Source of the DNA: Ensifer sp. LC163
GTDB taxonomy: Bacteria > Pseudomonadota > Alphaproteobacteria > Rhizobiales > Rhizobiaceae
Direction of reading: 5' to 3'
Assembly (NCBI RefSeq): GCF_001695855.1
Contig: NZ_MBSS01000002.1
Coordinates: 1-64,000 of the forward strand
Length of the DNA stretch: 64,000 bases
A program made the position numbers and the translations under genes. This document shows, in pieces, positions 19,272 to 54,327 of this stretch; position 1 is the first letter of the stretch; every line of letters starts with the position of its first letter. The notes under the pieces are model-generated. The model was not told the origin of the DNA, did no database searches, and was given only the letters and a program-made list of their open reading frames with translations.

Positions 19272-20039
19272 CTACTTCATGAACTCCCTGATCTTGTAGG
19301 CGACCTCGGTGCGGTTGGTCGCGTTCAGCTTTTTCATGATGTTTCTGATGTGAACCTTCACGGTGCTTTCACACAGATCCATCTCATAGGCGATGATCTT
19401 GTTTGCCTTTCCACGGCGCAAGGCTTCGGCCACTTCGATTTCCCGCGGCGTGAACAGGCTGTCGGAGCAACGGGCGCCATTGACGACGGAGTTGATTGCC
19501 TCTCTCATCGTCAGGATGCTGCTTGCCGGAACGAAGACGCCACCAGCGCGCGCAAGCGCAATCGCTTCGGCAGCGACATTGATGCCGACATTGCTTGGAA
19601 TGTAGCCACGGGCACCGCATTCCAATGCTTTGAGAATCTGGCCGAGTTCATCCGTTTCGGCGACCACGATCACCGGGCTGTACTTGAACTTCTCAACCAG
19701 CGTCTCGATCTTTTCGCAGACTGCGAGGTCGCCCACTTTGCTGCCGCCGACGATAAGAAGAATCGCGGAAGGGTCGGTCTGCAGCTTGCGGCTGCGCCAT
19801 TCGTCAAACGATCCGACGGTGACGATGGTCAGCCCGGGGTCGTAGCCCGTCAGGCTTTTCGACAGACACTCCCGGTCGAGAGCACGAGGGTCGATGAGCA
19901 GGATGTAGTCGAGGTCCTCCTCCTGATCGGTCATATCCGAACCGGCCAGGCTTTGCGGCGGACGCTGCTCCAGTACGCTTGGGAAGGATGTCGGCCGCGT
20001 CGTGGTGTTTCTTGCAATTGTTGCTGTACGAATATCCAT
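19272..20039 (-). CDS. LuxR-type regulator with degenerate receiver domain
   Basis: A 255-residue protein with a C-terminal LuxR/NarL helix-turn-helix (FTPREIEVAEALRRGKANKI, then YEMDLCESTVKVHIRNIMKK) and an N-terminal domain with receiver-like fold spacing (DYILLIDPRALDREC). The phospho-acceptor region reads AILLIVGGSKVGDL, with no Asp at the expected position, and the conserved Lys region reads GYIPSN. It is therefore probably not phosphorylated in the ordinary way. The start is supported by AAGGAG nine nt upstream. It follows a Crp/Fnr-type gene on the same strand across a 167-nt AT-rich gap, next to the exopolysaccharide genes, which it may control. Confidence 0.82.
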   Translation of the reverse strand: MDIRTATIARNTTTRPTSFPSVLEQRPPQSLAGSDMTDQEEDLDYILLIDPRALDRECLSKSLTGYDPGLTIVTVGSFDEWRSRKLQTDPSAILLIVGGSKVGDLAVCEKIETLVEKFKYSPVIVVAETDELGQILKALECGARGYIPSNVGINVAAEAIALARAGGVFVPASSILTMREAINSVVNGARCSDSLFTPREIEVAEALRRGKANKIIAYEMDLCESTVKVHIRNIMKKLNATNRTEVAYKIREFMK

Positions 20040-20093
20040 TGAATTTGCTCCTTCTTATTCTTATTTTCATGGGTGTAAATATTCTACATACAA

Positions 20094-20111
20094 GTATTGG
20101 TATTAGTATTC
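20094..20111. repeat. Three tandem GTATTN hexamers upstream of the LuxR gene
   Basis: GTATTG, GTATTA and GTATTC are directly adjacent in the AT-rich gap between the Crp/Fnr and LuxR genes, 55-72 nt upstream of the LuxR start. The local base composition is far more AT-rich than its surroundings, as expected for a regulated promoter. Function unknown. Confidence 0.4.
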
Positions 20112-20206
20112 CTTCGGGTTCCTCTCATATTTTGTTGTTATAGCTTGGCAATCAGACCACATATATTGGTGGTGCGCATTAACACAGGTTAAAGGACAGC
20201 CAGGAA

Positions 20207-20923
20207 TCAACCGGGATTCGTGCTGAGATAGCCCGGATCGAAGTCGACCAGTTCGGCCAGCCGTCTGCGGTCGAGAAATTCGACGATGCCATTCCTGAAG
20301 GATAACAATCCCTTCAACCTCATCTCCTTCAGAACGCGATTGATGTGCACGGTCGACAGTCCGACGGCGTCGCCGATGTCGGACTGCGTCAGCGGGCATT
20401 CGAAGCCGTCAAATCCCGGCCTGTCGGGTTTACCCGCCCGGACTGCGAGCTCGAGCAGAAGGTGCCCCGTACGCTCCAACGCGTCGCGACGTGCGATGTT
20501 TGCCAACCGCTCTGTCAGTCTGGCCTGGCGCTTCAGCATCTCGTGCACGAAGTTCTGCTGGATTCTGGGTGACAAATCGGGTCCCCTGGTGCCGGGAGGC
20601 ACCGCGAACTCGTAGGCGGTAACGTCGGAAAGTGCCTGGATCGTTTCCTGCGTCATGTCCGAAGACAAGGTCCAAACCATGTCGCCGCGCAGCATGAATT
20701 CGATGACAATGCGGGTACCGTTCGCCAGAATCTTGCGGCTGACGCTCCAGCCGGAGATGAAGAACAGAACGCATGATCTGCCTTCGGGCTCGAAAAGAAT
20801 CGAGCCCGCCGGGAACACCCGCTTTCGCGCGATGGAGAGTTCCGACTTCTGCTGGTCTGTGTCGAAACTCGACGGTTCGCGATACACGGGCGAGCCTATC
20901 GATGCACCAAGTTGCCCCACCAT
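20207..20923 (-). CDS. Crp/Fnr-family transcriptional regulator
   Basis: A 238-residue protein with an N-terminal cyclic-nucleotide-binding-like beta roll (KRVFPAGSILFEPEGRSCVL, MLRGDMVW) and a C-terminal winged helix (PLTQSDIGDAVGLSTVHINR, then VLKEMRLKGLL). The cAMP-contacting Arg-Ser of CRP and the N-terminal Cys cluster of FNR are not seen, so the effector is unknown. The helix-turn-helix matches the rhizobial Crp/Fnr group often linked to surface polysaccharide or stress control. It is followed on the same strand by the LuxR-type regulator. A repeated TGGTTAG element lies about 60-90 nt upstream of its start. Confidence 0.82.
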   Translation of the reverse strand: MVGQLGASIGSPVYREPSSFDTDQQKSELSIARKRVFPAGSILFEPEGRSCVLFFISGWSVSRKILANGTRIVIEFMLRGDMVWTLSSDMTQETIQALSDVTAYEFAVPPGTRGPDLSPRIQQNFVHEMLKRQARLTERLANIARRDALERTGHLLLELAVRAGKPDRPGFDGFECPLTQSDIGDAVGLSTVHINRVLKEMRLKGLLSFRNGIVEFLDRRRLAELVDFDPGYLSTNPG

Positions 20924-20982
20924 AAAGGCGCACTCTCTCTTCGATCTTTTCGATTGTACTTAAGTATATAGCAAACAACCGG

Positions 20983-21011: not shown

Positions 21012-21144
21012 TAATGGCGGGAAAACACATCGATATGAGCTTAATCCGGCTGGGTGGGGCCGGTGGTAAGAGGCTGAAGCGCTTGTGCTTTAGGCGTCGG
21101 CCGTGCCGAAGACCGCGCGCCGCAGTGGGCGTGACCCGTGATGG

Positions 21145-22428
21145 CTAGAGACCGTTTGACCAGGCGTAGTCGGCCATGCCTCTGTCGCTCGTCGCAACCG
21201 CTGGCTGGGTCTTCCGGCTCACGCCGCGGTTTTGATGTGCTACCAGGCAATCTCGCAGCTGGCTGATACCTTCGCGGGCCTGATGGAGGACCGAGCCGTG
21301 GACCGCGGGGTCGATGCCCTTGCGGGCCGCCTCCTCAAGCAGTGAGGCCACATGCTGTGCGGAGATATCGGCTTCTCCGGCAAAATATTCCGACCGGCCG
21401 ACGAACTGGAAGAAGCCGTCGACTTTTGGATCCCAGCCAAGACCGACCTGTGGCACGCCGAGCGAATAGGCGGCGATGCAGGCGTGCAGGCGATGCGCCA
21501 GTATGACCTGAGTCGATGCGAGGATGTGGATCAGTTCCTCGGGCGTTTTGGGGCGGGGGGCGAGACAGAGATTACCGCTGTCGATATGGGCAGCGAGACC
21601 CCCGCCGTTAAGAACGCGCCGCGCAAAGGCCTGGTCTTCCTGCGCTCCATTGGTGAAGAGGCAGACCCGATATCCGGCATCGAGCATCAGGTCGAGCAAT
21701 TGGTGATAGTCATCGGCGTGTCGGAACGGAATTCCTTGCGAACCGTGGCTGGAATGACGCCGCAGGATGAGCGGATCGGTGACGCAGATACCAATTGCCC
21801 GGTCATCGACTTTCAGCGGCTCGAGTGCGTGGCTTGCGACGATCTCGCGAACGAGCAACCCGGGGTCGGGCAGTATCCGGGCGTGCGGCCCGGCTGGAAA
21901 ATGGCCGAGCCAGTTGCGGCCGGCAATGGTATCGCGAACCGAGACGTGGACGAGTTGGCTTTCCTCGAGCACGCCGAAGAGTTGCCTTGCCTGCGACGAC
22001 CAGTCCCGGCTGGTGCCGACGGCATAGACAGCCAAAGGTTTGCCGCTGCGTTTGACGCAATCGAGCGCCGCGCCGACCTTGAGCGGGAAGTTCAGATCAT
22101 CGTCCTGAAACAGGTTTCCCCCGCCAATGACAACAGCATCGGCATCGTCGATCTCCTTCTGCCATTCCACTTGTAATCGGCGGAGTGTCGGACCAAGTGC
22201 CTGCCTTACGACCAGCCGACGCGCGAATGACGGCAGTGCTTGCAGCACCTTCAACAACCGCCGGCGCCGCCCGCCACCGCCGGTACCGAAAGCCGTCCTG
22301 CCGGCCAGATCGATCGTCTTGACCTCCAGTCCCCTGGCGCCGCGCGCCAGCGCCGTCTCCAGGCACTGGGCAAGGATGCCGTCGCCGAGGTTTTCGCTGT
22401 ATTTGACGTTGAAGATGACGATCTTCAT
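21145..22428 (-). CDS. Polysaccharide pyruvyl transferase family protein
   Basis: A 427-residue protein with the PS_pyruv_trans pattern: KYSENLGDGILAQCLETAL at the N-terminus, DADAVVIGGGNLFQDDD, and a C-terminal AHRLHACIAAYSLGVPQVGL. Family members transfer pyruvate from phosphoenolpyruvate to sugar hydroxyls as ketals, or in some cases act as glycosyl- or glycan-modifying enzymes. Its start overlaps the stop of the polymerase gene by one nucleotide (TGATG at 22426-22430), so the two are coupled. It would add a negatively charged pyruvyl group to the repeat unit of the exopolysaccharide made here. Confidence 0.85.
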   Translation of the reverse strand: MKIVIFNVKYSENLGDGILAQCLETALARGARGLEVKTIDLAGRTAFGTGGGGRRRRLLKVLQALPSFARRLVVRQALGPTLRRLQVEWQKEIDDADAVVIGGGNLFQDDDLNFPLKVGAALDCVKRSGKPLAVYAVGTSRDWSSQARQLFGVLEESQLVHVSVRDTIAGRNWLGHFPAGPHARILPDPGLLVREIVASHALEPLKVDDRAIGICVTDPLILRRHSSHGSQGIPFRHADDYHQLLDLMLDAGYRVCLFTNGAQEDQAFARRVLNGGGLAAHIDSGNLCLAPRPKTPEELIHILASTQVILAHRLHACIAAYSLGVPQVGLGWDPKVDGFFQFVGRSEYFAGEADISAQHVASLLEEAARKGIDPAVHGSVLHQAREGISQLRDCLVAHQNRGVSRKTQPAVATSDRGMADYAWSNGL

Positions 22429-23873
22429 CAGGAGCCTCCCATGCGGCGCGGACTGGTCGCATCAACCAACCGCGGTCTTGCCGTTCTTGCCTCGGCGATT
22501 TGCCGGCATGTCAGCGCCGACACGCTACCGGCGAGGATGTAGAACATAAGGCCCAGGTCATAGACGGTGCCCGATACGAGAGCCGTGCTGAGTGCGGCGA
22601 TAACGCCGGCTTTCGCCGCCCTCAGCGCGGCAACGCTCTCTGCTCGCCGCTGGGCGCCTGGCGCCACGCGAGCGCACAGGATGGTCGTGACAAAGACGCA
22701 GAAAATGACGAGCCCCAGGACGCCGACATTCGAAAGGAGAACCATCAGATAGCTCGAGGCGCGTGCACTCCCCAGGCCCGCCCCCATGCCGAAGGTGTTG
22801 ACGAAGGCCTCGTAGGCGGCAGCGTTCCACATCGCCCGCTCGCGGCCGGACTGGCTGTCGACCTTTGACAGGAGCATCTCATCGAGAAAGTCGTAAACAG
22901 TCGACACGGTTTCCGGAAACACGTTGACGACGGTGAGTATGACGAGCGGCACGACCAGGAAGAGAGCGGCCAGAAAGACTGGACGTGCCGGCTTTTTTCG
23001 CTCGAAGACCGTCACCAGCGCGCGTATCCAGAGAAATGGGAAGACCACCGCAAGCCCGAGCAGTGCGGTCGCCGAGGTGGAGAACACCAGCCCTGCGAGC
23101 GAGGCGGTCGCGAGGAAGGCTGTCGCCGGCGAACGCACCCGGTCGAGCCACAGGCTGGCGGTCGCGCCAAACAGGACCAGGGTGTAATCGGCAAAGGCTG
23201 ATGCTTCGGGGAACGATCCGGAAATCCGCTTCAGACCACCTTTTTCCGCCGCGGTCAGAAGGGCGTAGTTGGCCGTCCGCACCACGCTCAGCAGATATTC
23301 GGTGCCGGAGAAATAGGTGACAATGTCGGCCGCCGCGAAGGCGAGGTTGACCGCTGCAGCAATGAGGATGGCGTTGACGAGGTGTGACGGTGCAGCCGTC
23401 CGGCGCAGATAGGCATGACAGAATCCGAAACAGGCAAGGCCGCCGAGCGCATAGACGGCCTGCGTTATGTTGTTGGACGAAAATCGCAGCGGCGACAGCG
23501 ATATGAAACTTCTCGCGCCGACTGATCGCTCGACTGTCATCACGTCGACGGCGCCCTGGAAGAGGCGAGGCGACAGGACCGCCGTCAGCACGCCGAAAAA
23601 AGTGAGCACCATCAGCCAGAAGCCGGCACCGGCGGGCGCGAAGGCAGCAAGCACGGGCCCCTCGCCATAGGCCATCAGGATGCGAAGGCCGAAGAACAAC
23701 AGGAGAACATTGGGAACGAGGATGGATGCACCACCGAGCGCGGGAAGGTTGATGGCGGCCGCAGAGCCGAGAGCCGTTGAAACGACCATGAACGTCAATG
23801 CCCAGTGGATCGGCGCCATCAGGACGCCCACTCCAACGAGTACGGTAGCGAAGCCGATCAGTTCGAAGCTCAT
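22428..23873 (-). CDS. Exopolysaccharide polymerase / O-antigen ligase-like membrane protein (Wzy)
   Basis: A 481-residue protein with about 11-12 membrane segments, a large loop at about residues 130-210, and an O-antigen-ligase/polymerase-like motif (SGSFPEASAFADYTLVLFGA). The region SGRERAMWNAAAYEAFVNTF followed by GMGAGLG is typical of Wzy proteins in rhizobial EPS loci. It would polymerise lipid-linked repeat units in the periplasm. It is coupled to the pyruvyltransferase gene and divergent from a secreted GH16 glycanase across a 139-nt gap. Sequence alone cannot separate polymerase from ligase; the presence of Wzx, Wzc and Wza homologues favours polymerase. Confidence 0.78.
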   Translation of the reverse strand: MSFELIGFATVLVGVGVLMAPIHWALTFMVVSTALGSAAAINLPALGGASILVPNVLLLFFGLRILMAYGEGPVLAAFAPAGAGFWLMVLTFFGVLTAVLSPRLFQGAVDVMTVERSVGARSFISLSPLRFSSNNITQAVYALGGLACFGFCHAYLRRTAAPSHLVNAILIAAAVNLAFAAADIVTYFSGTEYLLSVVRTANYALLTAAEKGGLKRISGSFPEASAFADYTLVLFGATASLWLDRVRSPATAFLATASLAGLVFSTSATALLGLAVVFPFLWIRALVTVFERKKPARPVFLAALFLVVPLVILTVVNVFPETVSTVYDFLDEMLLSKVDSQSGRERAMWNAAAYEAFVNTFGMGAGLGSARASSYLMVLLSNVGVLGLVIFCVFVTTILCARVAPGAQRRAESVAALRAAKAGVIAALSTALVSGTVYDLGLMFYILAGSVSALTCRQIAEARTARPRLVDATSPRRMGGS

Positions 23874-24012: not shown

Positions 24013-24870
24013 ATGACCCCATCTGTTCGCGAAGCTTGCCCTTGCCCGGCCCGCCGCCTGCCAGTTCGGTTTTTCATCCGGCCTGTCGTCGGCTGCCTGT
24101 GCTTGATGATGCATATGTCGGTGACCTATGCCGACGGATACACGGCCGGCGATACGGGCGATGAGCTTCCGATCGACGACATGCCGCTGACCTTCGACGA
24201 GAATTTCGACGATCTGAGCGTATCTGCCTGGGGGCCCGGCACCCGGTGGATCGCACATACGCCCTGGTCGGGGGATTTCGGTGGAGCTCGCTTTGCCAAT
24301 CCCGGTCAACGCACTCCGTTCAAGACTGAGAATGGCATACTGAGGATCGAAGCCAAGCGTGACCCGGAAGGCGACTGGCAGTCCGGCCTGCTGGCCTCGG
24401 TGGACGCCAAGGGCAATGGCTTTGCCCAGCAATACGGCTATTTCGAAATGCGCGCGCGTTTGCCGGTCGGCCCGGGCGTGTGGCCCGCCTTCTGGCTGAT
24501 CGGCAAGGACCGCTCGAAGTCGACGGCCGAGATCGACGTGATGGAATTCTACGGCGACAAGCCGGAAGGCTATTCCTCGGTCATCCATGTCTGGCATCGC
24601 GGTGACAAGGACGATTCCCAATTCAGCCGGATCGAGGTATTTCGCGATGCCGACCCCGGAGAATTTCATAGCTATGGGGTGAAGATCGATTCCCAGTTCA
24701 TCCGGATGTATTTCGATCGGAAACTCGTGTGGAAGGCCGAAACGCGGCCTGAACACCGGCAGCCGATGTACGTGCTGCTCAACCTCGCGCTCGTCGAAAA
24801 AACCGCCGACCAGGCGCCGGATCCATCTCACATGTTCATCGACTATGTCAGGGCCTACGACCTTCAATAG
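24013..24870 (+). CDS. Secreted GH16 beta-glycanase (ExoK/ExsH-like)
   Basis: A 285-residue protein with a signal-like segment at residues 18-41 and a single GH16 domain. The catalytic motif EIDVMEFYG gives nucleophile E173, D175 and acid/base E178, and it is preceded by VGPGVWPAFWLIG. In S. meliloti, GH16 enzymes ExoK and ExsH cut nascent succinoglycan and set chain length, so a similar role on this locus's polymer is likely. It stands alone, divergent from the polymerase gene and upstream of the NRPS operon. A 346-nt gap follows, so read-through into the NRPS genes is possible but unproven. Confidence 0.87.
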   Translation: MTPSVREACPCPARRLPVRFFIRPVVGCLCLMMHMSVTYADGYTAGDTGDELPIDDMPLTFDENFDDLSVSAWGPGTRWIAHTPWSGDFGGARFANPGQRTPFKTENGILRIEAKRDPEGDWQSGLLASVDAKGNGFAQQYGYFEMRARLPVGPGVWPAFWLIGKDRSKSTAEIDVMEFYGDKPEGYSSVIHVWHRGDKDDSQFSRIEVFRDADPGEFHSYGVKIDSQFIRMYFDRKLVWKAETRPEHRQPMYVLLNLALVEKTADQAPDPSHMFIDYVRAYDLQ

Positions 24871-25216: not shown

Positions 25217-27166
25217 ATGGCTGAGTTCCGATTTCCCGAGCCCGACGGTTCGGCGGCGATGTCCGGCGGTGCGGCGGGCCGCTCGCGGGAAACGCTGCAC
25301 TATGACCCTGACCGCTCCGTTCATGCCGTTGTTCACCAGCAGGCCCAGGCTGCCCCGCTTGCAACGGCGATCGTTTTCGACGACCACTCGATCACCTATG
25401 GCGAACTTGATCTGTTGTCCGATCTGCTCGCCGCCTATCTGATGGGGCAGGGCGTAAAGAAGGGCGATATTGTCTGCCTCTTCGTTCCGCGCTCCCTTGA
25501 AACGATCGTCGCCATGCTGGCCACCCTCAAGGCCGGCGCTGCCTATCTTCCCCTCGACACGACCTTTCCCGTCGATCATCTCGACTATGTCATCGGCGAC
25601 TGTGAGCCCAAGGTGATCTTTGTCGATACCTGTACGCTCGCCACCATGCGTCTGGTGCCGAGCGTCAAGGGGATGATCGCCGATCTGGATGCCGTTGTCG
25701 CCGATCTCGCGCAGCAAGCCGAGAAAAAGCCGTTCGATCCAGTGCCTGTCGGCGGCGGCGATATGGCCTACGTTATGTACACTTCGGGTTCGACCGGCCG
25801 GCCAAAGGGCGTTTCCATTCCGCATCGTGGCATTACCCGCCTCGGCCTCGATCAAAATTACGTGCAGATCGGCAGTGCCGACGTGATGCTGCACGCCGCT
25901 ACAATCGCTTTCGATGCCTCCACGTTCGAGATTTGGGCCACATTGACAAACGGTGGGACCATCGCCGGGTTGCCAGACGGAAATTTCTCGATTGGCCGGC
26001 TTAGGGACGTCATTCGCGACAACGGCGTCACCGTTTCCTTGCTCACCACCGGCCTGTTCAACCTGCTCGCTGATTTCTCCTGCGGCGAGCTGCCGGCGTT
26101 GCGGCACATGTTGTTCGGCGGCGAAGTCGCCTCGGCCGAACACGTCAAACGCTTTCAGAAGGCACACCCGGGTTGCCGCCTGACCAACGGTTACGGACCG
26201 ACGGAAATCACCGTCATCGCCACTGCTTTCGACATTCCCGCGGGTTTCGACGGCAAGGACGTGCCGATTGGCGGGGCTGTCAGCCACACCGGAATATTGA
26301 TCGTCGATGAGGACCATCGCCCGGTCGGGTGCGGCATAGAGGGTGAGCTCGTCCTCACCGGCGAGGGCGTTGCCATCGGCTATTTCCGGCGTCCCGAGCT
26401 GACGGCTGAACGGTTCGTCACCATCCGCACCGAACAGGGCGATGTGCGCGGTTACCTGACGGGCGACCTCTCCGTACTCGGCGACGACGGCATCCTGCTT
26501 TTCCGAGGGCGGCGGGACCGGCAGATCAAGCTGAACGGAAAACGCATTGAGCTTGACGAGATCGAAGCCGCCTTGCGGCGTGACCCGCGGCTCGCCGACG
26601 GTGTCGTCATCTGCCAGCATCTGGATCAGTCGCACAAGCGCATCGTCGGTTACCTGTGCCCGCGTGAGGGCACCCGTGCAGATGACGCCGAGCTGATCCG
26701 CGGCGTGATGGAGAGACTGCGCAACAGTCTGCCCGCCTACATGATCCCGAGCAGCGTCATCGTGCTCGACCAACTGCCGCTGCATCAGTCGGGCAAGGTC
26801 GACCGTGCCAGCCTGCCGCTACCGGTGGACGCTTTGCCGGCCGAAAACGCGCCGGTCGCCAGTCGGACCGAGGCACTCTTGCAAGACCTCTGGCGCAACG
26901 TGCTCAGCCTGCAGGCCGTGGAGCTCGATCGCAATTTCTTCGATTTGGGGGGTACGTCGCTGCAACTGATGCGGGTGCATGCGGGGCTGGAGGCAAATCT
27001 CGCCCGTCCGATCGACGTGGTTGCCCTGTTCAAGCACCCGACCATTCGCGAGTTGGCTGGCTTCCTCGACGGAAAATCGTCGGCCAGTGCCCGGGCGATG
27101 ACAGCGGCCGAACGTGCCGCGTTGCAAAAGAAGAACATGTCCCACTTCCGCAGGAGCGCTTCATGA
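25217..27166 (+). CDS. NRPS loading module: adenylation-PCP
   Basis: A 649-residue protein with one adenylation domain (about residues 30-545) and a carrier domain (550-620). Core motifs are intact: A3 YTSGSTGRPKG (188-198), FDASTFE (D233), NGYGPTE and A10 SGKVDR (K527). The carrier Ser is S581 in FDLGGTSLQ. By hand alignment to GrsA the specificity residues read D-A-F-L-L-G-G-V-I-K, suggesting a hydrophobic amino acid, with low certainty. There is no condensation domain, so it is a starter module handing its amino acid to the KS of the next protein. It overlaps that gene by 4 nt (ATGA). The neighbouring phosphopantetheinyl transferase probably activates S581. Confidence 0.9.
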   Translation: MAEFRFPEPDGSAAMSGGAAGRSRETLHYDPDRSVHAVVHQQAQAAPLATAIVFDDHSITYGELDLLSDLLAAYLMGQGVKKGDIVCLFVPRSLETIVAMLATLKAGAAYLPLDTTFPVDHLDYVIGDCEPKVIFVDTCTLATMRLVPSVKGMIADLDAVVADLAQQAEKKPFDPVPVGGGDMAYVMYTSGSTGRPKGVSIPHRGITRLGLDQNYVQIGSADVMLHAATIAFDASTFEIWATLTNGGTIAGLPDGNFSIGRLRDVIRDNGVTVSLLTTGLFNLLADFSCGELPALRHMLFGGEVASAEHVKRFQKAHPGCRLTNGYGPTEITVIATAFDIPAGFDGKDVPIGGAVSHTGILIVDEDHRPVGCGIEGELVLTGEGVAIGYFRRPELTAERFVTIRTEQGDVRGYLTGDLSVLGDDGILLFRGRRDRQIKLNGKRIELDEIEAALRRDPRLADGVVICQHLDQSHKRIVGYLCPREGTRADDAELIRGVMERLRNSLPAYMIPSSVIVLDQLPLHQSGKVDRASLPLPVDALPAENAPVASRTEALLQDLWRNVLSLQAVELDRNFFDLGGTSLQLMRVHAGLEANLARPIDVVALFKHPTIRELAGFLDGKSSASARAMTAAERAALQKKNMSHFRRSAS

Positions 27167-41545: not shown

Positions 41546-41719
41546 CCTGTGCTCTCCGATCCTCGCCGGCTCTCCGCGCGCGCCGACCATCGGCGTCCAG
41601 GGATGAAGACAAATCGCCTGCTGGGTACCGGCCCCAATGAACAAGCCTAGTCGTGTCGCGACATCGTTTCAAAATGGCCTTCCGGCCAGCGCCTGAACAA
41701 AGTGTGCAGGCTCCAGCTA

Positions 41720-43578: not shown

Positions 43579-43731
43579 TCATTGCAGTTTGAAATAGAAA
43601 CCGGCGCTTTCGCTCGACATGTATCGCAGCCGTCCGCCGGCTGCCTTCAGCGGGGTCAGGGAGCGGTTGAGGCTACGCATCGCGCGACGCAGAAGCGGGT
43701 AGGCAGTGTTCTTGATGTCGCTGGTCAGCAC
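43579..43731 (-). CDS. Small basic protein, unrecognised (50 aa)
   Basis: A 50-codon frame begins with GTG at 43731, preceded by AGGGGAGACGCATC (a strong ribosome site), and ends with TGA at 43579. The product starts MLTSDIKNTAYPLLRRAMRS, is basic, and ends in an aromatic GFYFKLQ. Codon use looks like that of the neighbouring genes, with GC-rich third positions. It lies 46 nt downstream of the Wzx stop on the same strand, so it is probably the last gene of that operon. I know no family for it. Confidence 0.5.
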   Translation of the reverse strand: MLTSDIKNTAYPLLRRAMRSLNRSLTPLKAAGGRLRYMSSESAGFYFKLQ

Positions 43732-43777
43732 GATGCGTCTCCCCTGATTTTTGCGCCTGCGTTATTCCGTGCGTTCC

Positions 43778-45730: not shown

Positions 45731-45739
45731 ACGCCCCCG

Positions 45740-46417
45740 TCAGATCTCGTTTGTTGCAAAGAGGACGACGCCTACCGTTTTTACGATAATCACGATGTCG
45801 AGGTAGATCGACCGAGACTGGTAGTAGTCAATGTCGAGCTGAACCCGCTCGTCATAGGTGGTTTCCGGCCGTCTTTTGACTTGCCACATACCGGTGATGC
45901 CCGGCTTCAGTGCTGTGTAGTAGTGCAGGTTCGGGCCGTATCTCTCCGTTTCCTCCAGCGAGATCGGGCGAGGCCCGACAAGACTCATATCGCCGCGCAG
46001 CACGTTGTAGAACTGCGGCAATTCATCGAGGCAGGTCATCCGCAGGATCTTGCCGAGCCAATGGACACGCGGGTCGCCGACAAGCTTGCGTTTTTCCATC
46101 CACTCCCTGTTTCGCTCTGGGTCCGTCGCCAGAAGTTCGGCAAGTCGTTCCGCCGCATCGCGGCGCATGGTCCGGAACTTGAGGCACTCGAACATTTTCC
46201 CCTGTGCACCCACGCGGGCTTGCCGGAAGATGATGGGTCGGCCGTCGACGATGACAAGCGCGATTGCGATCAGCGCGAGGGCGGGCGCAAGGAAGATGAG
46301 CGCCAGGATGGATACCGTCACGTCGATCAGGCGTTTAGACCTGCTGCCGCGTCGTGCTGCGATGGTTCCGCGCGCGGCGTGTCCTTGATGTGCAGCGCCA
46401 TCAGAAACAGACAGCAT
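45740..46417 (-). CDS. Initiating undecaprenyl-phosphate glycosyl-1-phosphate transferase (ExoY-like)
   Basis: A 225-residue bacterial sugar transferase with one N-terminal membrane hairpin (IDVTVSILALIFLAPALALI) and the catalytic core FRQARVGAQGKMFECLKFRT, then LDELPQFYNVLRGDMSLVGP and MWQVKRRPETTYDERVQLD. This small, ExoY-sized form starts polysaccharide synthesis by putting sugar-1-phosphate on undecaprenyl phosphate. The start is set at ATG 46417 with GGGGGGTGAGAG before it, not at an upstream TTG. The gene lies 201 nt downstream of a glycosyltransferase gene, so it may have its own promoter. Confidence 0.9.
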   Translation of the reverse strand: MLSVSDGAAHQGHAARGTIAARRGSRSKRLIDVTVSILALIFLAPALALIAIALVIVDGRPIIFRQARVGAQGKMFECLKFRTMRRDAAERLAELLATDPERNREWMEKRKLVGDPRVHWLGKILRMTCLDELPQFYNVLRGDMSLVGPRPISLEETERYGPNLHYYTALKPGITGMWQVKRRPETTYDERVQLDIDYYQSRSIYLDIVIIVKTVGVVLFATNEI

Positions 46418-46618
46418 ATCTCTCACCCCCCCAACACCGTTCGCCAATAACAGGCTGCCAGCGGGCGCCTTGATTTACAATCGATCCTGATGGGCAAGGC
46501 CTAGTCCAATGGAGGTACGCACCGGGCAGGATTGCCGTGCCGCCGGTTAAACGTCCTAATCGGCGGGAGACGGAGGCCCTTCGCTGGCAGCTTGTTCCAA
46601 GCACTGATCGAAGCCGTT

Positions 46619-47926
46619 TCATCGGGGCTCACCACTGCGCAGATCACTTAGAGCCGCGGCGGCGACCAGTTGGTGCCGTCGGATGTCGACCGTGCTCCGG
46701 TTGGCGCGTTGCAACACGCGACCGTAGAGGTCGATCAACGCGTCCACCCAGGATTCCGGCGTATGCGCGAGCGTGGCCGCCGCCCTGAAGCCGTTTCCGC
46801 TCATTTGCCGTACCAGTGCGTCGTTGGCAGCAAGGGAGCGCATCGCGGCGGCAAGATCCTCGACATCGGCGATGCGGAATTTGACGCCGCAGCCCAGGGC
46901 CGCAATCTCGTCCGCGAGCAAGGCGGCGTCGGTCAGGATGACCGGTATGCCGGTGGAGATGGCTTCAAGGGCCGCCAGGCCGAACGGTTCCGGTACACGC
47001 GACGAGACCACGACGGCGCGTGCGCTGCGAATGATATCCCGCATCTCGTCCTTGGATTTCCAGCCGTGAACGGTTGCCTGGGGAAACTCCTTTTCGATAA
47101 GCGCGCGGCCGGCGCCATCGCCGATGAAATGAAGCGGCACCTTGGCAAGGTTTGCCGCCTTGGCTGCATCCTCGAACCCCTTTTCAGGCTCCAATCGGCC
47201 GACGAACACGAAGTTGCGGTTGGTCCAGGGCTGGAGCCCGGCGCTGAGGAAGGGAAGGACAGGATTTCGGATCGTTTCGATCTGAGCCCCGTTCGTGCCG
47301 GCGCGCTCGAAGTAGCCCCGCATCCTCTCGTGCACGACGATGATGTTTGCGGCCACCCGCTTGGTCGGGAAAAGGTGTTCGCGCAGCATATGCCGCGCCG
47401 AGCGCCAAGCCTTCTCGTGCAGGCCGCGTTTGTCGCATTGCGTTGTGAGGCAACGGCTGGACATCGGCTTCAGTTGACAGACGCGGTGGGTCTGGAAATT
47501 GACGAAGCCGCCATTGGGGCAGGCGAGGAAATAGTCGTGAGCGTGGAGGACCACGCGGTCGCGCACGGGCGCGAGCGCCCGGAAGATTGCCGGCGACAGG
47601 ATCTTCGACCAACCATGAACGTGGTAGATCGTCGACGGGGTATCGCGGCTTGTGATCAGCCGGTTGAGCGCCTCGTAGACGGGCGGATCGTAAAGGCCGA
47701 GACGCATTGCGTCGCTCCGCCGTCGCTCCAGCAAGGGAACAGCGTTGAGATTGATCGTATCGGCGGCCGGCTTGTCGTCCGGCGCACGGTCGCCGGCAAA
47801 GAACGTGACCGAGATTCCGCGCTGCTGGAGCAGCTCGGCGGAAAGTATGGCGAGGTTCGTGGCGCCGCCGACCCTGGTGGAACGATCGTTGATGACGACG
47901 ACGCGGTCGGGCGGCTGAACCATCAT
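46619..47926 (-). CDS. Glycosyltransferase family 4
   Basis: A 435-residue GT-B enzyme. The N-terminal donor/acceptor domain includes NDRSTRVGGATNLAILSAEL and a YHVHGWSKILSP segment. The C-terminal GT4 motif reads FVFVGRLEPEKGFEDAAKAA, and the catalytic EPFGLAALEAISTGIPVILT carries the E-x7-E glutamates. It adds one sugar to the growing lipid-linked repeat unit, retaining configuration. The start at 47926 (two adjacent ATGs) lies 4 nt after the stop of the upstream GT2 gene, so the two are coupled. Confidence 0.87.
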   Translation of the reverse strand: MMVQPPDRVVVINDRSTRVGGATNLAILSAELLQQRGISVTFFAGDRAPDDKPAADTINLNAVPLLERRRSDAMRLGLYDPPVYEALNRLITSRDTPSTIYHVHGWSKILSPAIFRALAPVRDRVVLHAHDYFLACPNGGFVNFQTHRVCQLKPMSSRCLTTQCDKRGLHEKAWRSARHMLREHLFPTKRVAANIIVVHERMRGYFERAGTNGAQIETIRNPVLPFLSAGLQPWTNRNFVFVGRLEPEKGFEDAAKAANLAKVPLHFIGDGAGRALIEKEFPQATVHGWKSKDEMRDIIRSARAVVVSSRVPEPFGLAALEAISTGIPVILTDAALLADEIAALGCGVKFRIADVEDLAAAMRSLAANDALVRQMSGNGFRAAATLAHTPESWVDALIDLYGRVLQRANRSTVDIRRHQLVAAAALSDLRSGEPR

Positions 47927-47930
47927 GGCA

Positions 47931-48851
47931 CTACTCGAGCCTTTCGACGTTCCGCGGCGCCAGCCGACCGGTGAGCAGATCCAGGAATGCGCGTGCATTG
48001 CCGCGCAGGCGGCCTTTTCGATCGACCCAGGGCTCAGGCTTCCAGACCTTGACCAAATTCGCCGCCAGATTGCGCACGATCTGCACGCTGGCGTGCCGAA
48101 CGCTCATCGTGTCCTTGCGGATCAGGTAGATCGGGTTGGCGATCTGCGAGTAGCCGAACTTGATGCCCGGCGTCCTCGCCAGCTTGGTTCCGAGATGGAC
48201 GCCGACGAGATTGCTGGATTGCACCACCCGACCGAGCGCTGCGGCCATCCGGCTGAAGTCGACGTCCTCCAGCCAGCCGTAAAGGGGCAGGTTCTCGTCG
48301 AAAGCCAGCTGGGCGTCGCGGACGGGGCCGGTCCTGACCGCCATGTTGCAACCATAGGCGTTGTAGATCGGCCTGAATGCCTGCGTCGATCTGGGGAGGC
48401 GATCGTCCGCTGCGATCAGCTCCAGGCCGCCGTCGACCGAAATGCCGGGCCCGATGATGCCATCGGCGACCAGCGTGCCCGTGGCGATGACCACGTCTTC
48501 GTTTTCGGCGAATAGCCGCCCGACTTCCTCGATATAGGATTGCGCCATCAGGAAATCGTCGTCCAGAAAGAGAATGACATCCGACGTGGCGGCGGCGAGG
48601 ATGCGGTTTCGCTGTCGACAGCTGCCGCGCTCCGAGATGATGACGATGACGCGGACCGCAAGCCCCTCCACGCAGCTCGGGTCCATATCCTCCGGCGACG
48701 AGAGGCAGACGTAAATTTCGTCCGGCTGCCGGGTCTGCCTGGCGATGAGGGGCAGGACGGCGGAGAGAATGTCTCTTCGCCCACAGCTCGGTATGCCGAT
48801 GGCAACCGTTACCGGGCGAACGTCGGGATGGTCATCCGTTGCTGACATCAT
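47931..48851 (-). CDS. Glycosyltransferase family 2
   Basis: A 306-residue GT-A enzyme: VAIGIPSCGRRDILSAVLPL at the N-terminus, FLDDDF as the metal-binding DxD region, GWLEDVDFS as the catalytic ED region, and a C-terminal amphipathic tail. It transfers a sugar with inversion to the repeat-unit intermediate. The start chosen, ATG at 48851, overlaps the stop of the preceding copolymerase gene (ATGATG over TGA). An ATG at 48869 would add six residues but has no ribosome site. Confidence 0.85.
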   Translation of the reverse strand: MMSATDDHPDVRPVTVAIGIPSCGRRDILSAVLPLIARQTRQPDEIYVCLSSPEDMDPSCVEGLAVRVIVIISERGSCRQRNRILAAATSDVILFLDDDFLMAQSYIEEVGRLFAENEDVVIATGTLVADGIIGPGISVDGGLELIAADDRLPRSTQAFRPIYNAYGCNMAVRTGPVRDAQLAFDENLPLYGWLEDVDFSRMAAALGRVVQSSNLVGVHLGTKLARTPGIKFGYSQIANPIYLIRKDTMSVRHASVQIVRNLAANLVKVWKPEPWVDRKGRLRGNARAFLDLLTGRLAPRNVERLE

Positions 48852-51121
48852 TTTCTCAACTTGCGCCATTGTTTTCGGTCCCAGCGGATGTTGGTACGGC
48901 GCGGGCCGTCGCTTCTGTTCGAAATGACGCCGAGCAGCGCGACGCGTGATTTGCCGAATGTCGCCAGGGCCTCGCCGAGCCGTTCGACGGTCATCTTGTC
49001 GGATTGCCCGAGAACCACGACGATGCCGTCGAGATAGGTGCAGATGACGCGCGTATCGGCGGAATCTTCGAACCCGGACATGTCGACGATGATCACCTTG
49101 TAGCGCTGTCTCAGCAGCTCGAGTTCTGATTTCAGCGCCGGCAGGTGGCCGTAGCGTTGATGCGCGACGGCGGCCTTGCGCGTCTGGTCGACCGTCAGAA
49201 CCGGCACGCAGCGCACGGCCTTGCCGTCAAATTCCTCGACGTGCTGCAGCGCCTCGCTCGATCTGCGCCGGGAATATTGGCCGGGAATGCCCAGGATCCG
49301 CAGGCTCTCCATGCCGAAGCCCGCGCCGTCTTCGGTGGCTACGCGGCTGAGGCGGGAGCCGACGAAATCCGCATCCACGAGCAGGACCGAGGCCCCTTCG
49401 TTCATGTAGAGCTGGGCGAGGTTGGCAGCGATCGTGGTCTTGCCTTCGCCGGGACCGACCGAGGTCACGCCGATGACCGCGGACGCATTGGCCGGGAAGG
49501 CGGAATCGACGGAGTTCTTCACCCCGCGCAAGGCCTCGGAGAACCGCGAATAGGGCATGTCCAAAACCGATCGCAGCGGCAGCATTGTGGAGGCGATCGG
49601 AGGCTGATGGGGGCGCGGGCTGCTTCTGAACATCGGCACATGGCCGAGCGATGTAATGCCGAGCTCGGCGCGGAGGCGCTCGCTGGAGCTGACGCGTCGG
49701 TCGAGGCCATCGCGCAGCACAGACAGGATAAGCCCGGTCGCCAATCCGAACATCAGGGAAAACGGCATGATCGTCGAAGGCTTGGGCCAGGTCTTGCCCA
49801 ACGGTGCAGTCGCCGCCGTCACGATACGAGCCTTGCCGAGGGGAAAGGATTGTTTTTGCATCGCGCCGATGAGCTGCTGAAGAATACCCTCGTACATATT
49901 GCGATAGGTCGTGGCGCGGCTTTCCATCTCGGAGAGTTCGACGCGGGCGACGTTCTTGCCGGCACCCGTCGCGGTCAGATTGGCAAGCTCGCTTTCCAGC
50001 AGCTCTTCCCGGGTCTTGGCGATCTCGACATTCGACTTGTAGAACTGTTCGATGCGCAGGAATTCGTTACGAAGTGCGGCGTCCAGCCGAGCGATATCCG
50101 CCTCGGCGGCGACAATGGCGGGGTTTCCGCTGTCGTATCGGGTCTTGAGATTATCGAGCTTGGCGGTTGCCAGGCGCATTTCTTCGTTGAGCTTCTGGAT
50201 CTGTGGGTTGTCGAGGCTGTCGTTGACGCTGGCGACCATCGTGTCTCTCGACATGAGTTGTTGCAGCGTCATCAGTTTGGCGGACTCAGCCGCAGTCGCG
50301 GCGCGCGCAGCCAGCATCTGGCTGCTGAGTTCGGAAAGCTGCTGCTGATCGAGTGTCGACGTGGTGCCGACCGTGGTGATGTCGTTCTTGGCCCGGAACT
50401 CTTCCACGGTCATTGCCGCTGCACGCGCCTGCGCGCCGACTTCGATCAGGCGGCTCTCCAGCCACCTGGCGCCGCTCCTTGCAGCGTCGGATCGCTCGTT
50501 CATGCCTGTCCGGATATAGGCGCCGGCAATGGCATTGGCTGTTTTGGCCGCCTTTTGCGGATCGGTGGAGGAATAACCAATCTCGAGGACGTAGGACTGA
50601 CCGACGCGCCGAACGGTGACGCGCGAGAGGAAGGTGGCCATGGTGCGCCGCATCAGGTATTCGTCATCAGCCGCATTGTCTTCGGCACTTTTGGCACCCG
50701 ACGAGAAAAGCGAGCCGATCATGCCTCGGATCGAAACGCCATCGCCGACGATTTCCGGATCGTTGGTCAAGTCGAGCTGTTCGATGACGGCGCGGGCGAT
50801 CGCCTCGGATTTGACGATTTCGACTTCGCTGGCGATCTCGGCTGCTTCGATGATGATCGTTCCGGTCGAGGCATCCTGGGAGGCGATGCGGCCCTGCTCG
50901 GGGTCGATCACCAGACGGACGGTCGCCGTAAAGGTCGGTGCCGTATTGAAGATGTAGAAGGCGCCGAGCGCCAGTCCGATCATGCCACAGATCGCGATGC
51001 GAACGAGGTGTCGCCGCAGGAAGTCGGAAACATCGCGGAAGGATATGTTCTCCTGACCGGCCGAACGCTTGGCCTCGAAGTTCTCATCCAGCACGATTTT
51101 TGAGATGTCATGCACGACCAT
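48848..51121 (-). CDS. Polysaccharide co-polymerase / Wzc-ExoP-like ATPase
   Basis: A 757-residue inner-membrane protein with a Wzz domain: TM1 near residues 40-60, TVRLVIDPEQG, a long coiled-coil periplasmic region, PLGKTWPKP before TM2 near 450, then a cytoplasmic CpsD/BY-kinase domain. That domain has Walker A GVTSVGPGEGKTTIA, Walker A' SVLLVDADF and VIIVDMSG. In ExoP and Wzc this domain phosphorylates a C-terminal tyrosine cluster to set chain length. Here the tail (RRTNIRWDRKQWRKLRK) has no tyrosines, so autophosphorylation must occur elsewhere or be absent. The gene is between the Wza-like and GT2 genes in one operon. Confidence 0.9.
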   Translation of the reverse strand: MVVHDISKIVLDENFEAKRSAGQENISFRDVSDFLRRHLVRIAICGMIGLALGAFYIFNTAPTFTATVRLVIDPEQGRIASQDASTGTIIIEAAEIASEVEIVKSEAIARAVIEQLDLTNDPEIVGDGVSIRGMIGSLFSSGAKSAEDNAADDEYLMRRTMATFLSRVTVRRVGQSYVLEIGYSSTDPQKAAKTANAIAGAYIRTGMNERSDAARSGARWLESRLIEVGAQARAAAMTVEEFRAKNDITTVGTTSTLDQQQLSELSSQMLAARAATAAESAKLMTLQQLMSRDTMVASVNDSLDNPQIQKLNEEMRLATAKLDNLKTRYDSGNPAIVAAEADIARLDAALRNEFLRIEQFYKSNVEIAKTREELLESELANLTATGAGKNVARVELSEMESRATTYRNMYEGILQQLIGAMQKQSFPLGKARIVTAATAPLGKTWPKPSTIMPFSLMFGLATGLILSVLRDGLDRRVSSSERLRAELGITSLGHVPMFRSSPRPHQPPIASTMLPLRSVLDMPYSRFSEALRGVKNSVDSAFPANASAVIGVTSVGPGEGKTTIAANLAQLYMNEGASVLLVDADFVGSRLSRVATEDGAGFGMESLRILGIPGQYSRRRSSEALQHVEEFDGKAVRCVPVLTVDQTRKAAVAHQRYGHLPALKSELELLRQRYKVIIVDMSGFEDSADTRVICTYLDGIVVVLGQSDKMTVERLGEALATFGKSRVALLGVISNRSDGPRRTNIRWDRKQWRKLRK

Positions 51122-51167: not shown

Positions 51168-52493
51168 CTATTGGGACTGTTCGATGCCCACCGATGTCAG
51201 GAGCTTGTTGTCCAGCGCAGCCGTCAGCGCCGAGCGAACGTCGAGCAGGTCGCCCGGATCCAGCAATGTGGTGTCCAAGACTTTGATGGCCGTGCCGTTC
51301 CCACCGCCGTGGGTTATCCAGTACTCCAGCGGCTCCAGGTCCATCGCTTTCCTATCGGCGAAACGGGAGAGGGAAGCACCGTTGATCTGCAGCAGTTGCA
51401 GCGTCGTACTGCGCTTGAGCTTCAGATCCTCGATCGCGGCTTCCGTCATCTGCAGATCGCGGCCGGCTTCGGTTCGGCGCTGACCCTGCAAGGTCACTGC
51501 GTCGCGCTCCGTCTCGCTGAGTTTCTGTTTGGCGCGCATGGCGGCCACCTGAAGGTCGAGCTTGTCGCTTTGCAGCTCGGCGACGATCCGCTCAAGCGAA
51601 GTCTGGCGCGACTTCGTCACTGTCTGGTCGTTCACCAACTTGGATATGCCTTTGAGCTCATCCTGCGCGATCTCGATCTGACGCTGCTGGACGGCAGTCT
51701 TTTCATCAAGCACGTCGATTTCGTTTTTCAGCAGGGTGCCAAGCTCGGCAAGGGAATCGAGCTGACGGCGAATGGCCTCGACCCGGGCGTCGAAGAGCGT
51801 ACTCTCGTCGCGCACGATCTGCTGGATGGCGGCGCCATCGGCGACCTTGAGCGCTTGGGGAAACTCGATCTTGGTACTGTCCGTGAACTCTGCCCTCAGC
51901 CGGGCCCGACGGGCGGCGAGCTGCATCATCTCGAGTTCCATCCGGTTCAATTCGCCGGTGTAGCGGATCTGCTCCATGTCGGAGTAGCCGCCGGCAGGGT
52001 TTGTACGGCGTTCGCGTCCGCCCGCCATTGCCACCGCCTGCATCACGGTCATGCCCGGCCGGAATTCCAGCTCGCTCGGCCGGTCGACCAGACCGGTGAC
52101 GTAGATCATGGGGTAGCGGACAACTTCGACGGATGTCTCCGGCGCCTTGCTGAGGCCGGTGCGCTCCTTCAGGAGGTCGGCGATCGTGGCTGCCAGTTCC
52201 GCGGGTGTTCTATCCCCGGCCTTGACTTCACCAACCAGCGGAACCGAGATCGTACCGGCAGGGGAGACGACATACTCGCCGTTGAGCGCGGTCCATTCCT
52301 TGTACTCGCCCGTCGAGGCGACCCATTCGACGATTGCCACCTTGATCCTCGTCTGCGGCTGCAGACGGAACACCGGCTCGGCCTGAGCCTGATGGAGGGG
52401 AGCAAGAGTGCTCAGGCTGATTGCCAGGCACAGGGTCGAGACACGGCCAAGGGACGACAGGCGATGTAAGATACGGTGATCGGCATGGGGCAT
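51168..52493 (-). CDS. Polysaccharide export protein (ExoF/Wza family, periplasmic)
   Basis: A 441-residue exported protein with a signal peptide ending near residue 38 (AQAEPVF), a Poly_export domain (EYVVSPAGTISVPLVGEVKA), and a SLBB region (MIYVTGLVDRPSELEFRPG). A helical coiled-coil insertion spans about residues 190-340. This long, non-lipidated form is like S. meliloti ExoF, in contrast to the shorter lipoprotein Wza. It is the first gene of a minus-strand operon (export, copolymerase, GT2, GT4). The 331-nt gap upstream holds candidate regulatory repeats. Confidence 0.88.
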   Translation of the reverse strand: MPHADHRILHRLSSLGRVSTLCLAISLSTLAPLHQAQAEPVFRLQPQTRIKVAIVEWVASTGEYKEWTALNGEYVVSPAGTISVPLVGEVKAGDRTPAELAATIADLLKERTGLSKAPETSVEVVRYPMIYVTGLVDRPSELEFRPGMTVMQAVAMAGGRERRTNPAGGYSDMEQIRYTGELNRMELEMMQLAARRARLRAEFTDSTKIEFPQALKVADGAAIQQIVRDESTLFDARVEAIRRQLDSLAELGTLLKNEIDVLDEKTAVQQRQIEIAQDELKGISKLVNDQTVTKSRQTSLERIVAELQSDKLDLQVAAMRAKQKLSETERDAVTLQGQRRTEAGRDLQMTEAAIEDLKLKRSTTLQLLQINGASLSRFADRKAMDLEPLEYWITHGGGNGTAIKVLDTTLLDPGDLLDVRSALTAALDNKLLTSVGIEQSQ

Positions 52494-52824
52494 GGGGCCT
52501 CGCAGATGTTCCTGGGCGCAACGGTGCCGGACAGATCAGCTTGGCGTGGCGCGTCGGACTGATTGTCGGCCCAAAACGTTCGAGGTAAATTCCCTGCGGT
52601 CTAATCGCGGCTAATCCCTTTAGGGGAGCAGCTCTAAACCGGCGGCACCATCGGATAGGATAGCCTCTGCCGATGTCTAAACCCCGCACGGCCACTGCTG
52701 GTCGCTAAACCTTTCGAGTAGGGCGATCGTTCCTTCGGATGCACCGTCGGACCGATCTTGGCGCTGTGCACGCGAGCCCCGTCTGCCCCATGCTGCGACA
52801 GGATCGTTGCAATGGGGGAGCGCC
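52494..52824. promoter_or_regulatory. Divergent promoter region of the export operon and GT4 gene
   Basis: This 331-nt gap contains no supportable gene. At 52601-52616 CTAATC is repeated with a 10-nt period (CTAATCGCGGCTAATC), followed by CCCTTTAGGGG (52616-52626), a near-palindrome. Read on the minus strand these are GATTAG repeats upstream of the export operon, similar to elements before the NRPS and Crp/Fnr genes. Confidence 0.4.
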
Positions 52825-54003
52825 ATGCGCGTCGCAATCGTTCATTATTGGCTGGTATCGATGCGGGGCGGGGAGAAGGTGATCGAGTCGCTTTGCGATC
52901 TTTATCCCGAGGCCGACATCTTCACGCTGGTCTATGATCAGGGGCGCGTGTCCGACACGATCAAGAAACACAAGGTGACCTCATCGTTCCTGCAACGCAT
53001 TCCCGGCGCCATCGGACACTATCAGTCATTGCTGCCCCTGATGCCCTTCGCGCTGGAGAGCCTCGATCTCAGCGGCTACGACCTGATCATTTCAAGCGAA
53101 TCCGGGCCGGCGAAGGGGATCATCCCGCCGCCGCATGCGGCCCATATCTGCTATTGCCATTCGCCCATGCGTTACCTCTGGGATCACTACCATGCCTATC
53201 GGTCGAGTGCGGGCCTGTTGTCGCGGGTGATGATGCCGGTGCTGGCACCGATGTTGCGGACCTGGGACGTCAACACCAGCATGCGGGTGGACCGCTTTGT
53301 CGCCAATTCCCACCACGTGGCGGCGCGCATCAGCAAATACTACCGCCGTCCGGCCACGGTGATTTACCCGCCTGTCAGCACCGAGGACTTCGCGCCCTCG
53401 ATACAGATCGAGGACTTTTATCTCTGCGCAGGCCAGATCGTCCCCTACAAGCGGATCGACCTGGCCGTCGAGGCTTTCACGAAGATGGGCAGGAACCTCG
53501 TCGTGATCGGCGACGGCAAGGAGCAGGATATAGCCAGGTTGAAGCGCATGGCCGGTCCCACCGTGACCTTCCTGGGGCGAGCGCCCTTTGCGGTGCTGAA
53601 GGAAAAGCTAGCACGCTGCCGCGCCCTGGTTTTTCCCGGAGAGGAGGATTTCGGCATCGTGCCGGTCGAGGCCATGGCGAGCGGCCGCCCGGTCATTGCC
53701 TTTGGCGCCGGGGGTGCGCTTGAGACTGTCGTGCCCAATCTGACGGGGCTGCTTTTCGAACAGCAGAGCGTCGATGCGCTGATCAAGGCGATCTACGCCT
53801 TCGAGGCCCGGGAAGATGCCTTCCGGCCTGATGTCATCAGGGCGCACACGGGACAGTTCAGCGTCCGGAAGTTCAAGGCCGGCATGCAGGCGGTCATCGA
53901 TGACGAGCTTCGCCAGCGCCGGGCGTTGCCGTTCGGTGACGGAAAGCTGGCGATCGGCGGATACCAGATGCGCGAGGCCGAAGGCGCGACGCCGTTGCAT
54001 TGA
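52825..54003 (+). CDS. Glycosyltransferase family 4 (WbaZ-like)
   Basis: A 392-residue GT-B enzyme: MRVAIVHYWLVSMRGGEKVI at the N-terminus and ICYCHSPMRYLWDHYH in the first domain, typical of WbaZ-type mannosyl or related transferases. The GT4 core follows with VPYKRIDLAVEAF and PGEEDFGIVPVEAMASGRPV. The start at 52825 has GGGGGAG immediately upstream; a TTG 18 nt earlier is unlikely. It is divergent from the export operon and followed by a small membrane protein gene on the same strand. It probably adds a sugar to the repeat unit. Confidence 0.88.
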   Translation: MRVAIVHYWLVSMRGGEKVIESLCDLYPEADIFTLVYDQGRVSDTIKKHKVTSSFLQRIPGAIGHYQSLLPLMPFALESLDLSGYDLIISSESGPAKGIIPPPHAAHICYCHSPMRYLWDHYHAYRSSAGLLSRVMMPVLAPMLRTWDVNTSMRVDRFVANSHHVAARISKYYRRPATVIYPPVSTEDFAPSIQIEDFYLCAGQIVPYKRIDLAVEAFTKMGRNLVVIGDGKEQDIARLKRMAGPTVTFLGRAPFAVLKEKLARCRALVFPGEEDFGIVPVEAMASGRPVIAFGAGGALETVVPNLTGLLFEQQSVDALIKAIYAFEAREDAFRPDVIRAHTGQFSVRKFKAGMQAVIDDELRQRRALPFGDGKLAIGGYQMREAEGATPLH

Positions 54004-54114
54004 GCGCGCGGCGCCACGGACTGGTCGCGAGCCTGCGAAAGCGGCGGGTTGTGGTCTTAGAAAAGGATTTGCCGGTGCGCTGCTTTGGCTTGCTGCCGGC
54101 CGGAAGAGGTAGGC

Positions 54115-54327
54115 ATGCGTTTCCTTGTTCGTCGGCTGGGGGCTTTCAATCGGGATGAGTTGCCCGCGTGGCGCGGCGCTCAGCCGACGTCGTTGAAGGT
54201 TCTCCTGTTCGTGCCGCGTCTCGTCGAATTCCTGGTGATGTATGCTGTCGGTTTATGCGCGCTCGCGGCAATCCTGTTGCTGATGGCGATTGGGTGGTTG
54301 ACGGGACTCGACCGCAAGGCAAGCTGA
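54115..54327 (+). CDS. Small single-pass membrane protein (70 aa), unrecognised
   Basis: A 70-residue protein starting MRFLVRRLGAFNRDELPAWR, preceded by GGAAGAGGTAGGC. One long hydrophobic segment (FVPRLVEFLVMYAVGLCALA and the following ILLLMAIGW) forms one or two membrane helices before a short basic tail. It lies 111 nt downstream of the GT4 gene on the same strand and may share its transcript. No family is recognised. The 343 nt that follow contain nothing else I can support. Confidence 0.55.
   Translation: MRFLVRRLGAFNRDELPAWRGAQPTSLKVLLFVPRLVEFLVMYAVGLCALAAILLLMAIGWLTGLDRKAS

Follow-up and report, generated by a model that had tools for sequence, protein, structure and literature searches.

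The decorations known on bacterial polysaccharides are mostly simple, namely acetyl, pyruvyl and succinyl groups and single amino acids. In the Dlt system, which D-alanylates teichoic acids, the aminoacyl group for a surface polymer comes from an adenylation (A) domain and a carrier protein. Rhizobial exo-type loci for Wzx/Wzy exopolysaccharides (EPS) encode an initiating transferase, glycosyltransferases (GTs), Wzx, Wzc/ExoP, Wza/ExoF, a pyruvyl transferase and a GH16 enzyme, and in rhizobial K-antigen loci a multidomain synthase, RkpA, is tied to a surface polysaccharide. Analysis of 64,000 nucleotides from Ensifer sp. LC163 (contig NZ_MBSS01000002.1, positions 1 to 64,000; "the window") revealed an EPS locus that encloses a three-gene nonribosomal peptide synthetase-polyketide synthase (NRPS-PKS), nrpA-pksB-nrpC ("the trio"). 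A first-pass annotation had placed an NRPS-PKS set and its phosphopantetheinyl transferase (PPTase) inside an EPS locus, and the open reading frames (ORFs) and Pfam matches bear this out. To our knowledge, no NRPS-PKS that decorates an EPS has been characterised. In the open-licence literature, as represented by titles and the openings of abstracts, no NRPS-PKS of an EPS locus was recognised, which is weak evidence that none is in print.

The trio resembles Dlt in pairing an A domain with a carrier protein. Unlike Dlt, it is an NRPS-PKS of several steps, predicted to include extension by malonate and addition of glycine, and Pfam reported no protein of the MBOAT family among the window proteins scanned. 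The locus differs from exo-type loci in having a peptide-polyketide assembly line among its genes, and RkpA differs from the trio in being fatty-acid-synthase-like, with no known adenylation or aminotransferase (AMT) chemistry. The order ketosynthase (KS), acyltransferase (AT), acyl carrier protein (ACP), AMT and condensation (C) is that of the mycosubtilin and iturin synthases (MycA), in which the AMT aminates an ACP-bound beta-ketone at the beta position. In a PDB search the AMT of pksB matched that of MycA (6kfm) at 2.6e-112, and both this domain order and the AMT lysine that binds pyridoxal phosphate were found in pksB. Unlike MycA, the trio starts from an amino-acid A-peptidyl carrier protein (PCP) module rather than a fatty acyl group, lies in an EPS locus and has no cyclic lipopeptide modules. 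ObiF1-type NRPSs (6n8e) share with the trio a cysteine at the nucleophile position of the thioesterase (TE), but differ in product and in the order of the last module, where nrpC has no A core. Each part of the system has known kin: MycA-type AMTs, Cys-type TEs, Wzx/Wzy loci and the sugar formyltransferase fold.

The relation between trio and EPS genes was examined across relatives. Of 494 relatives found in a scan of genome contigs, the 80 best were retained and looked at. Together with 8 plasmid regions and 6 sampled genomes they make up 94 units, after exclusion of G436, G1083 and G1109 as repeats of loci L062, L097 and L095. EPS gene classes were scored by tblastn, with a match covering at least half of the query. 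At least one core EPS gene class was found in 90 of the 94 units and at least two in 89; the four units with none (L041, L042, L054 and L065) are all cut by contig ends. Fifteen loci have no EPS genes downstream, and all 15 have Wza upstream on the same contig, about 17-25 kb off, with other EPS genes between. By our own arithmetic, with 29 Wza-like matches across 22 genomes, each about 5 Mb in size, the chance expectation for Wza is about 1.3%. A stand-alone cluster that merely lies near EPS genes was rejected on these two counts. The first-pass annotation had suggested that the product is attached to the polysaccharide, a proposal at odds with a block standing alone or beside unrelated genes in relatives; neither arrangement was seen, the four units without EPS genes being fragments.

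Within the genus, both nrpC and Wzx were found in 7 of 16 genomes, and the other 9 showed neither. Given this shared distribution and the 90 linked units, a tie between the trio product and polysaccharide synthesis is well supported by the genomic evidence. Sampling more widely, the family was carried by 7/397 genomes of the order, 2/385 of the class and 3/398 of the phylum, with the window genome counted each time. Every sampled carrier falls in the same class, and the nine besides the window have EPS genes, those of the distant genome G711 matching weakly. The nrpC proteins of Hyphomicrobiales and Rhodobacterales are only about 35-39% identical, and their loci differ in gene order and share the same kinds of genes. 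A core of sugar genes is shared with the Rhodobacterales loci compared, in which the glycosyltransferase gene gt4b is the best conserved EPS gene (50-57%); wbaP (48-49%) and gt2 (47-49%) also belong to this core.

Further evidence came from a tree of nrpC, for which L041, L042 and L065 were left out and 92 rows were thinned to 47; the placement of the long branches G711, G161 and G406 in it is unsure. The nrpC of the Consotaella locus L081 and that of G246, a genome of the window's order, group with Loktanella and relatives (support 99/94). The gt4b proteins of L081 and G246 are likewise closer to Loktanella than to the window (58% vs 51% and 57% vs 50%), as are their Wzy-like proteins (42% vs 31% and 42% vs 29%), as if the unit had moved whole. 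The dependence appears to be one-sided, as expected of a decoration, with gt4b often present without the trio: among 26 other genomes of the order sample with gt4b at 50% or above, the trio was found in 6 and was absent from 20. Distant or partial trio matches were found in G117 and G211. The AMT-bearing synthase of G117 is 32-39% identical, has no nrpC match and has no EPS gene match within 39 kb. This one control suggests that it is the nrpC-bearing family, and not AMT synthases generally, that is linked to EPS genes.

All three genes of the trio lie on the plus strand. nrpA (25217-27166) encodes a stand-alone A-PCP starter module (Pfam AMP-binding 1.8e-81, PP-binding 2e-13), pksB (27163-35238) a KS-AT-ACP-AMT(class III)-C-A-PCP protein, and nrpC (35235-38042) a C-PCP-TE protein with an AMP-binding_C remnant between C and PCP. 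The trio appears to be translationally coupled, with a four-base overlap between each of the starts of pksB and nrpC and the preceding stop (27163/27166 and 35235/35238). The AMT lysine motif, TYGK or TFGK, was found in 86 of 95 sequences and the AT motif SHAFH, which we take to be malonyl-type, in 92 of 95, window included. Adenylation codes were placed by eye, following the GrsA scheme. The A domain of pksB reads DILQLGMVW in the window; among 92 relatives, one of them unreadable, 91 have DILQ(L/M/W)G(M/L)(I/V)W. This is presumably a glycine-type code. The starter code of nrpA (DAFLLGGVI in the window) is variable, with 36 distinct codes in 80 loci, although misalignment may affect some of the divergent codes from Rhodobacterales. 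The count does not include L042 and L082, which are truncated, or 12 fused or cut loci in which the code was unreadable. Every one of the 36 codes starts with Asp, which we take to indicate an alpha-amino acid substrate.

The same contrast was found in domain identities to the window, which were computed for the 61 gint-bearing loci with a separate nrpA. The starter A domain has a median of 55%, against 65-80% for KS, AT, AMT, C2, glycine A and C3; the TE median is likewise 55%. In nucleotide comparisons the match extends over the whole trio in Ensifer canadensis, whereas for each of the 13 plasmid records from Sinorhizobium and Rhizobium it starts past nrpA, at query base 2010 or later. From these patterns, the predicted product is a beta-amino acyl-glycine that stays constant while its first residue can be exchanged.

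The last module is unusual. On one alignment (A5), Pfam found C, PCP and TE in 37/37 nrpC members and the adenylation core PF00501 in none of the 37; the C-terminal part of the A domain is retained in 22. nrpC is thus not a complete C-A-PCP-TE termination module. G711 (L143-L144, G711:C93:38500-64391) has a full C-A-PCP-TE at this position, with a third A domain reading DILQLGMIW (by eye from the alignment), the same glycine-like code, and a TE that is also GxCxG. Because G711 still has the full module, the third A domain was probably lost from nrpC during evolution, and the G711 arrangement, with its intact A domain and a TE already of the Cys type, is likely to represent an earlier state. 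The PCP serine S614 is present in 44/44 nrpC; PCP3 may accept the chain directly, or it may be loaded in trans. The C domain motif is HQxCFDG in the window; compared with HHxxxDG, the first His (H151) and the DG (D156) are found in 44/44. A dead last module is unlikely, since this C domain is about as conserved as KS (median identity 76.3% vs 77.5%). The TE has GxCxG rather than the serine-type GxSxG, with Cys750 in 44/44 and Asp777 in 43/44.

Downstream of nrpC, after a gap of 24 bases, lies gint (38067-39653, plus strand), which encodes a GINT1_N protein (Pfam). Its modelled structure has a formyltransferase-fold domain at residues 1-258 and a five-bladed GH43/GH130-like propeller at residues 272-528. 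The N-domain has the sugar N-formyltransferase fold: all 50 structure matches listed were formyltransferases or same-fold proteins (10-formyltetrahydrofolate dehydrogenase hydrolase domain, HypX). Fusion to the propeller sets gint apart from the sugar N-formyltransferases WbkC, QdtF and FdtF and from the ArnA N-domain. The catalytic Asn-His-Asp could not be recognised by eye in the N-domain sequences, and none of 32 members had a formyltransferase Pfam match. On the strength of the modelled folds, gint is a candidate transfer partner acting on a glycan. The absent adenylation core, the Cys-type TE, the variable starter with constant glycine and this formyltransferase-fold partner all go beyond the first-pass annotation, as does a deleted methyltransferase gene described below.

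Taken together, we lean slightly towards the reading that the EPS repeat unit is decorated by a peptide-polyketide acyl group made by the trio. What the sequences show directly is the order of the domains, the conservation of key residues and the conserved linkage; substrates, release to a sugar, export route and covalent attachment of product to polymer are inferred. The locus would make a Wzx/Wzy-type EPS whose repeat unit bears this short group. nrpA would load an alpha-amino acid and pksB would extend it by one malonyl unit, after which the AMT would turn the beta-ketone into a beta-amine, giving a beta,gamma-diamino acyl group. pksB would then add glycine and hand the chain to PCP3 of nrpC, possibly once a further glycine, loaded in trans by the A domain of pksB, had been added. 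Transfer of the chain to a sugar, either in the lipid-linked repeat or in its nucleotide-sugar precursor, would be the work of the Cys-type TE, probably aided by gint in Hyphomicrobiales. The decorated unit would leave via Wzx, Wzy, Wzc and Wza, so that a peptide exporter would not be needed.

Several observations weigh against the decoration reading. The second His of the nrpC C motif is replaced by Gln (Q152) in 35/44, so that nrpC may have changed or lost its condensation activity, and H909 of the TE is present in just 23/44. A looser motif scan found GxCVxG in 89 of 95 ORFs, with the remaining 6 not inspected. gint was not found in the mapped loci of Rhodobacterales, which often have a CocE/NonD (S15) hydrolase, and the attaching enzyme is therefore not universal across trio loci. 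The 94 units are related, several species being represented twice, and are not independent events. Linkage in G711 is weak (wzx 25%, wbaP 37%). As to movement of the whole unit, a Loktanella preference was not seen for wzx of L081 and G246, nor for a third nested Hyphomicrobiales locus, that of Tianweitania (L088), which has no close gt4b. Finally, LuxR-type genes lie near the trio in several loci (the window, G161, G190 and G238, one in G238 with an autoinducer-binding domain), which would also fit a signal molecule, and in Ensifer the locus is closely preceded by an RND pump (13805-18141), with another about 11 kb away in Loktanella.

The last two points favour the main rival, a free small molecule made by the synthase. 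Serving as a signal, as part of the matrix or as a protectant, it would be regulated together with the EPS and would reach the outside by diffusion or through some other pump; the presence of a TE domain also favours this reading. We consider it unlikely, since the trio is linked in two orders to the assembly genes wzx, wbaP and wzc and not only to regulators, the last module is A-less with a Cys TE, and no conserved dedicated exporter was seen. The first-pass annotation had likewise noted no dedicated peptide exporter, and none other than Wzx was found among the locus proteins scanned; the RND pump adjoins the span it described. The pump and a DUF922 protein beside it (18374-18982) are 97% and 89% identical next to the locus in E. 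canadensis, whose strain T173 belongs to the genus group of the window genome. Among the related loci in hand, RND identity is high only there, with weak hits of 23-25% in L016, L072, L074 and L076. The pump was rejected as a dedicated exporter on this restricted recurrence, related DNA often reaching just 10 kb per side.

Another explanation is that the peptide-polyketide is itself the acceptor, glycosylated by the GTs, and that Wzx exports a glycopeptide-like compound; mycobacterial glycopeptidolipids offer a comparison. Several GTs do stand beside the trio, and the best conserved sugar genes (gt4b, gt2 and wbaP) form the shared core. This is nevertheless quite improbable, as the presence of an initiating transferase, of Wzc and Wza and of a probable Wzy speaks for a lipid-linked polymer and the Asp that opens all 80 starter codes read makes a fatty-acyl start unlikely. 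That the trio decorates another surface glycan or lipid, and has a surface island but not a product in common with its EPS neighbours, would suit the variation of EPS gene sets between trio loci and G406, where the gt4b-type EPS locus and the trio lie on separate contigs, but is very improbable given that the G406 trio is still flanked by wzc-, wbaP-, wza- and TIGR04325-like genes (23-48%) and that Wzx and nrpC have identical distributions in the genus.

The remaining genes of the locus were called from the ORF listing and a Pfam scan of window proteins. Upstream of the trio lie a LuxR/GerE-type regulator (19272-20039), a Crp/Fnr-type regulator (20207-20923), a polysaccharide pyruvyl transferase (21145-22428; Pfam 4.8e-24) and a probable Wzy polymerase (22428-23873), all on the minus strand, and a GH16 glycanase (24013-24870, plus; 1.1e-14). 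The genes named in the first-pass annotation were recovered by Pfam except for the polymerase. The 22428-23873 protein has no Pfam match; with 8 hydrophobic segments in a simple hydropathy scan and 34% identity to an unannotated protein of a Jannaschia EPS locus, it is likely to be Wzy. Downstream of gint are an Sfp/HetI-like PPTase (39574-40374, minus; Pfam ACPS 5.5e-21, NCBIfam HetI 8e-46, under the HetI cut-off), a DegT/DnrJ/EryC1 aminotransferase (40364-41644, minus; 5e-78), listed with a TTG start whose real position may lie downstream, and a GMC oxidoreductase (41821-43545, plus; GMC_oxred_C 7.6e-25). A PPTase match was found in 83 of 94 units. DegT and GMC matched in 52 and 49 of 95 sequences (window included; many cut short), and were rejected as essential partners, being probably accessory.

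Next to these, short matches mark the remnant of a TIGR04325-family methyltransferase gene (about 43583-43740, minus), in which roughly 667 bp are deleted at about 43616 relative to L019; the gene is present in L019 and L011. There follow on the minus strand a Wzx-type flippase (43778-45301; Polysacc_synt_3 1.9e-30), the initiating sugar transferase (45740-46447; Bac_transf 1.4e-60), a GT4-like (46619-47998) and a GT2-like glycosyltransferase (47931-48869), both by Pfam, a Wzc/ExoP-like co-polymerase (48848-51121; Wzz, GNVR, CbiA) and a Wza/ExoF-like export protein (51168-52493; Poly_export, SLBB), and on the plus strand gt4b (52807-54003; GT4, by Pfam). Of the marks of a Wzx/Wzy-dependent EPS locus, the initiating transferase, Wzx, Wzc and Wza are thus present, and Wzy is likely. 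Beyond the locus, the window carries an apparently unrelated catabolic island at 55538-62580 (two luciferase-like monooxygenases, an M20 peptidase, an ABC transporter and a solute-binding protein). In other trio loci, minCDE genes (L015:28268-30125) directly adjoin the locus on a plasmid of Rhizobium sp. SL42, and in the divergent locus of G238 a large hybrid histidine kinase and a GGDEF response regulator lie between wzc and the trio (L139:3845-9957).

A broader proposal, to which we give an even chance, is that Alphaproteobacteria have a class of EPS with a lineage-variable tag (variable amino acid, beta-amine and constant glycine) made by a dedicated NRPS-PKS and exported with the polymer via Wzx. 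These would be glycan-peptide-polyketide hybrid polymers, in which the starter diversifies as O-antigen sugars do. If this is true, a conserved NRPS-PKS devoted to the decoration of an exported polymer would link the assembly lines of natural products with those of glycans. The predicted decoration can be tested directly in culturable strains. On this proposal, orphan NRPS-PKS clusters of the nrpC-bearing family may have no known product because the product stays bound to the slime.

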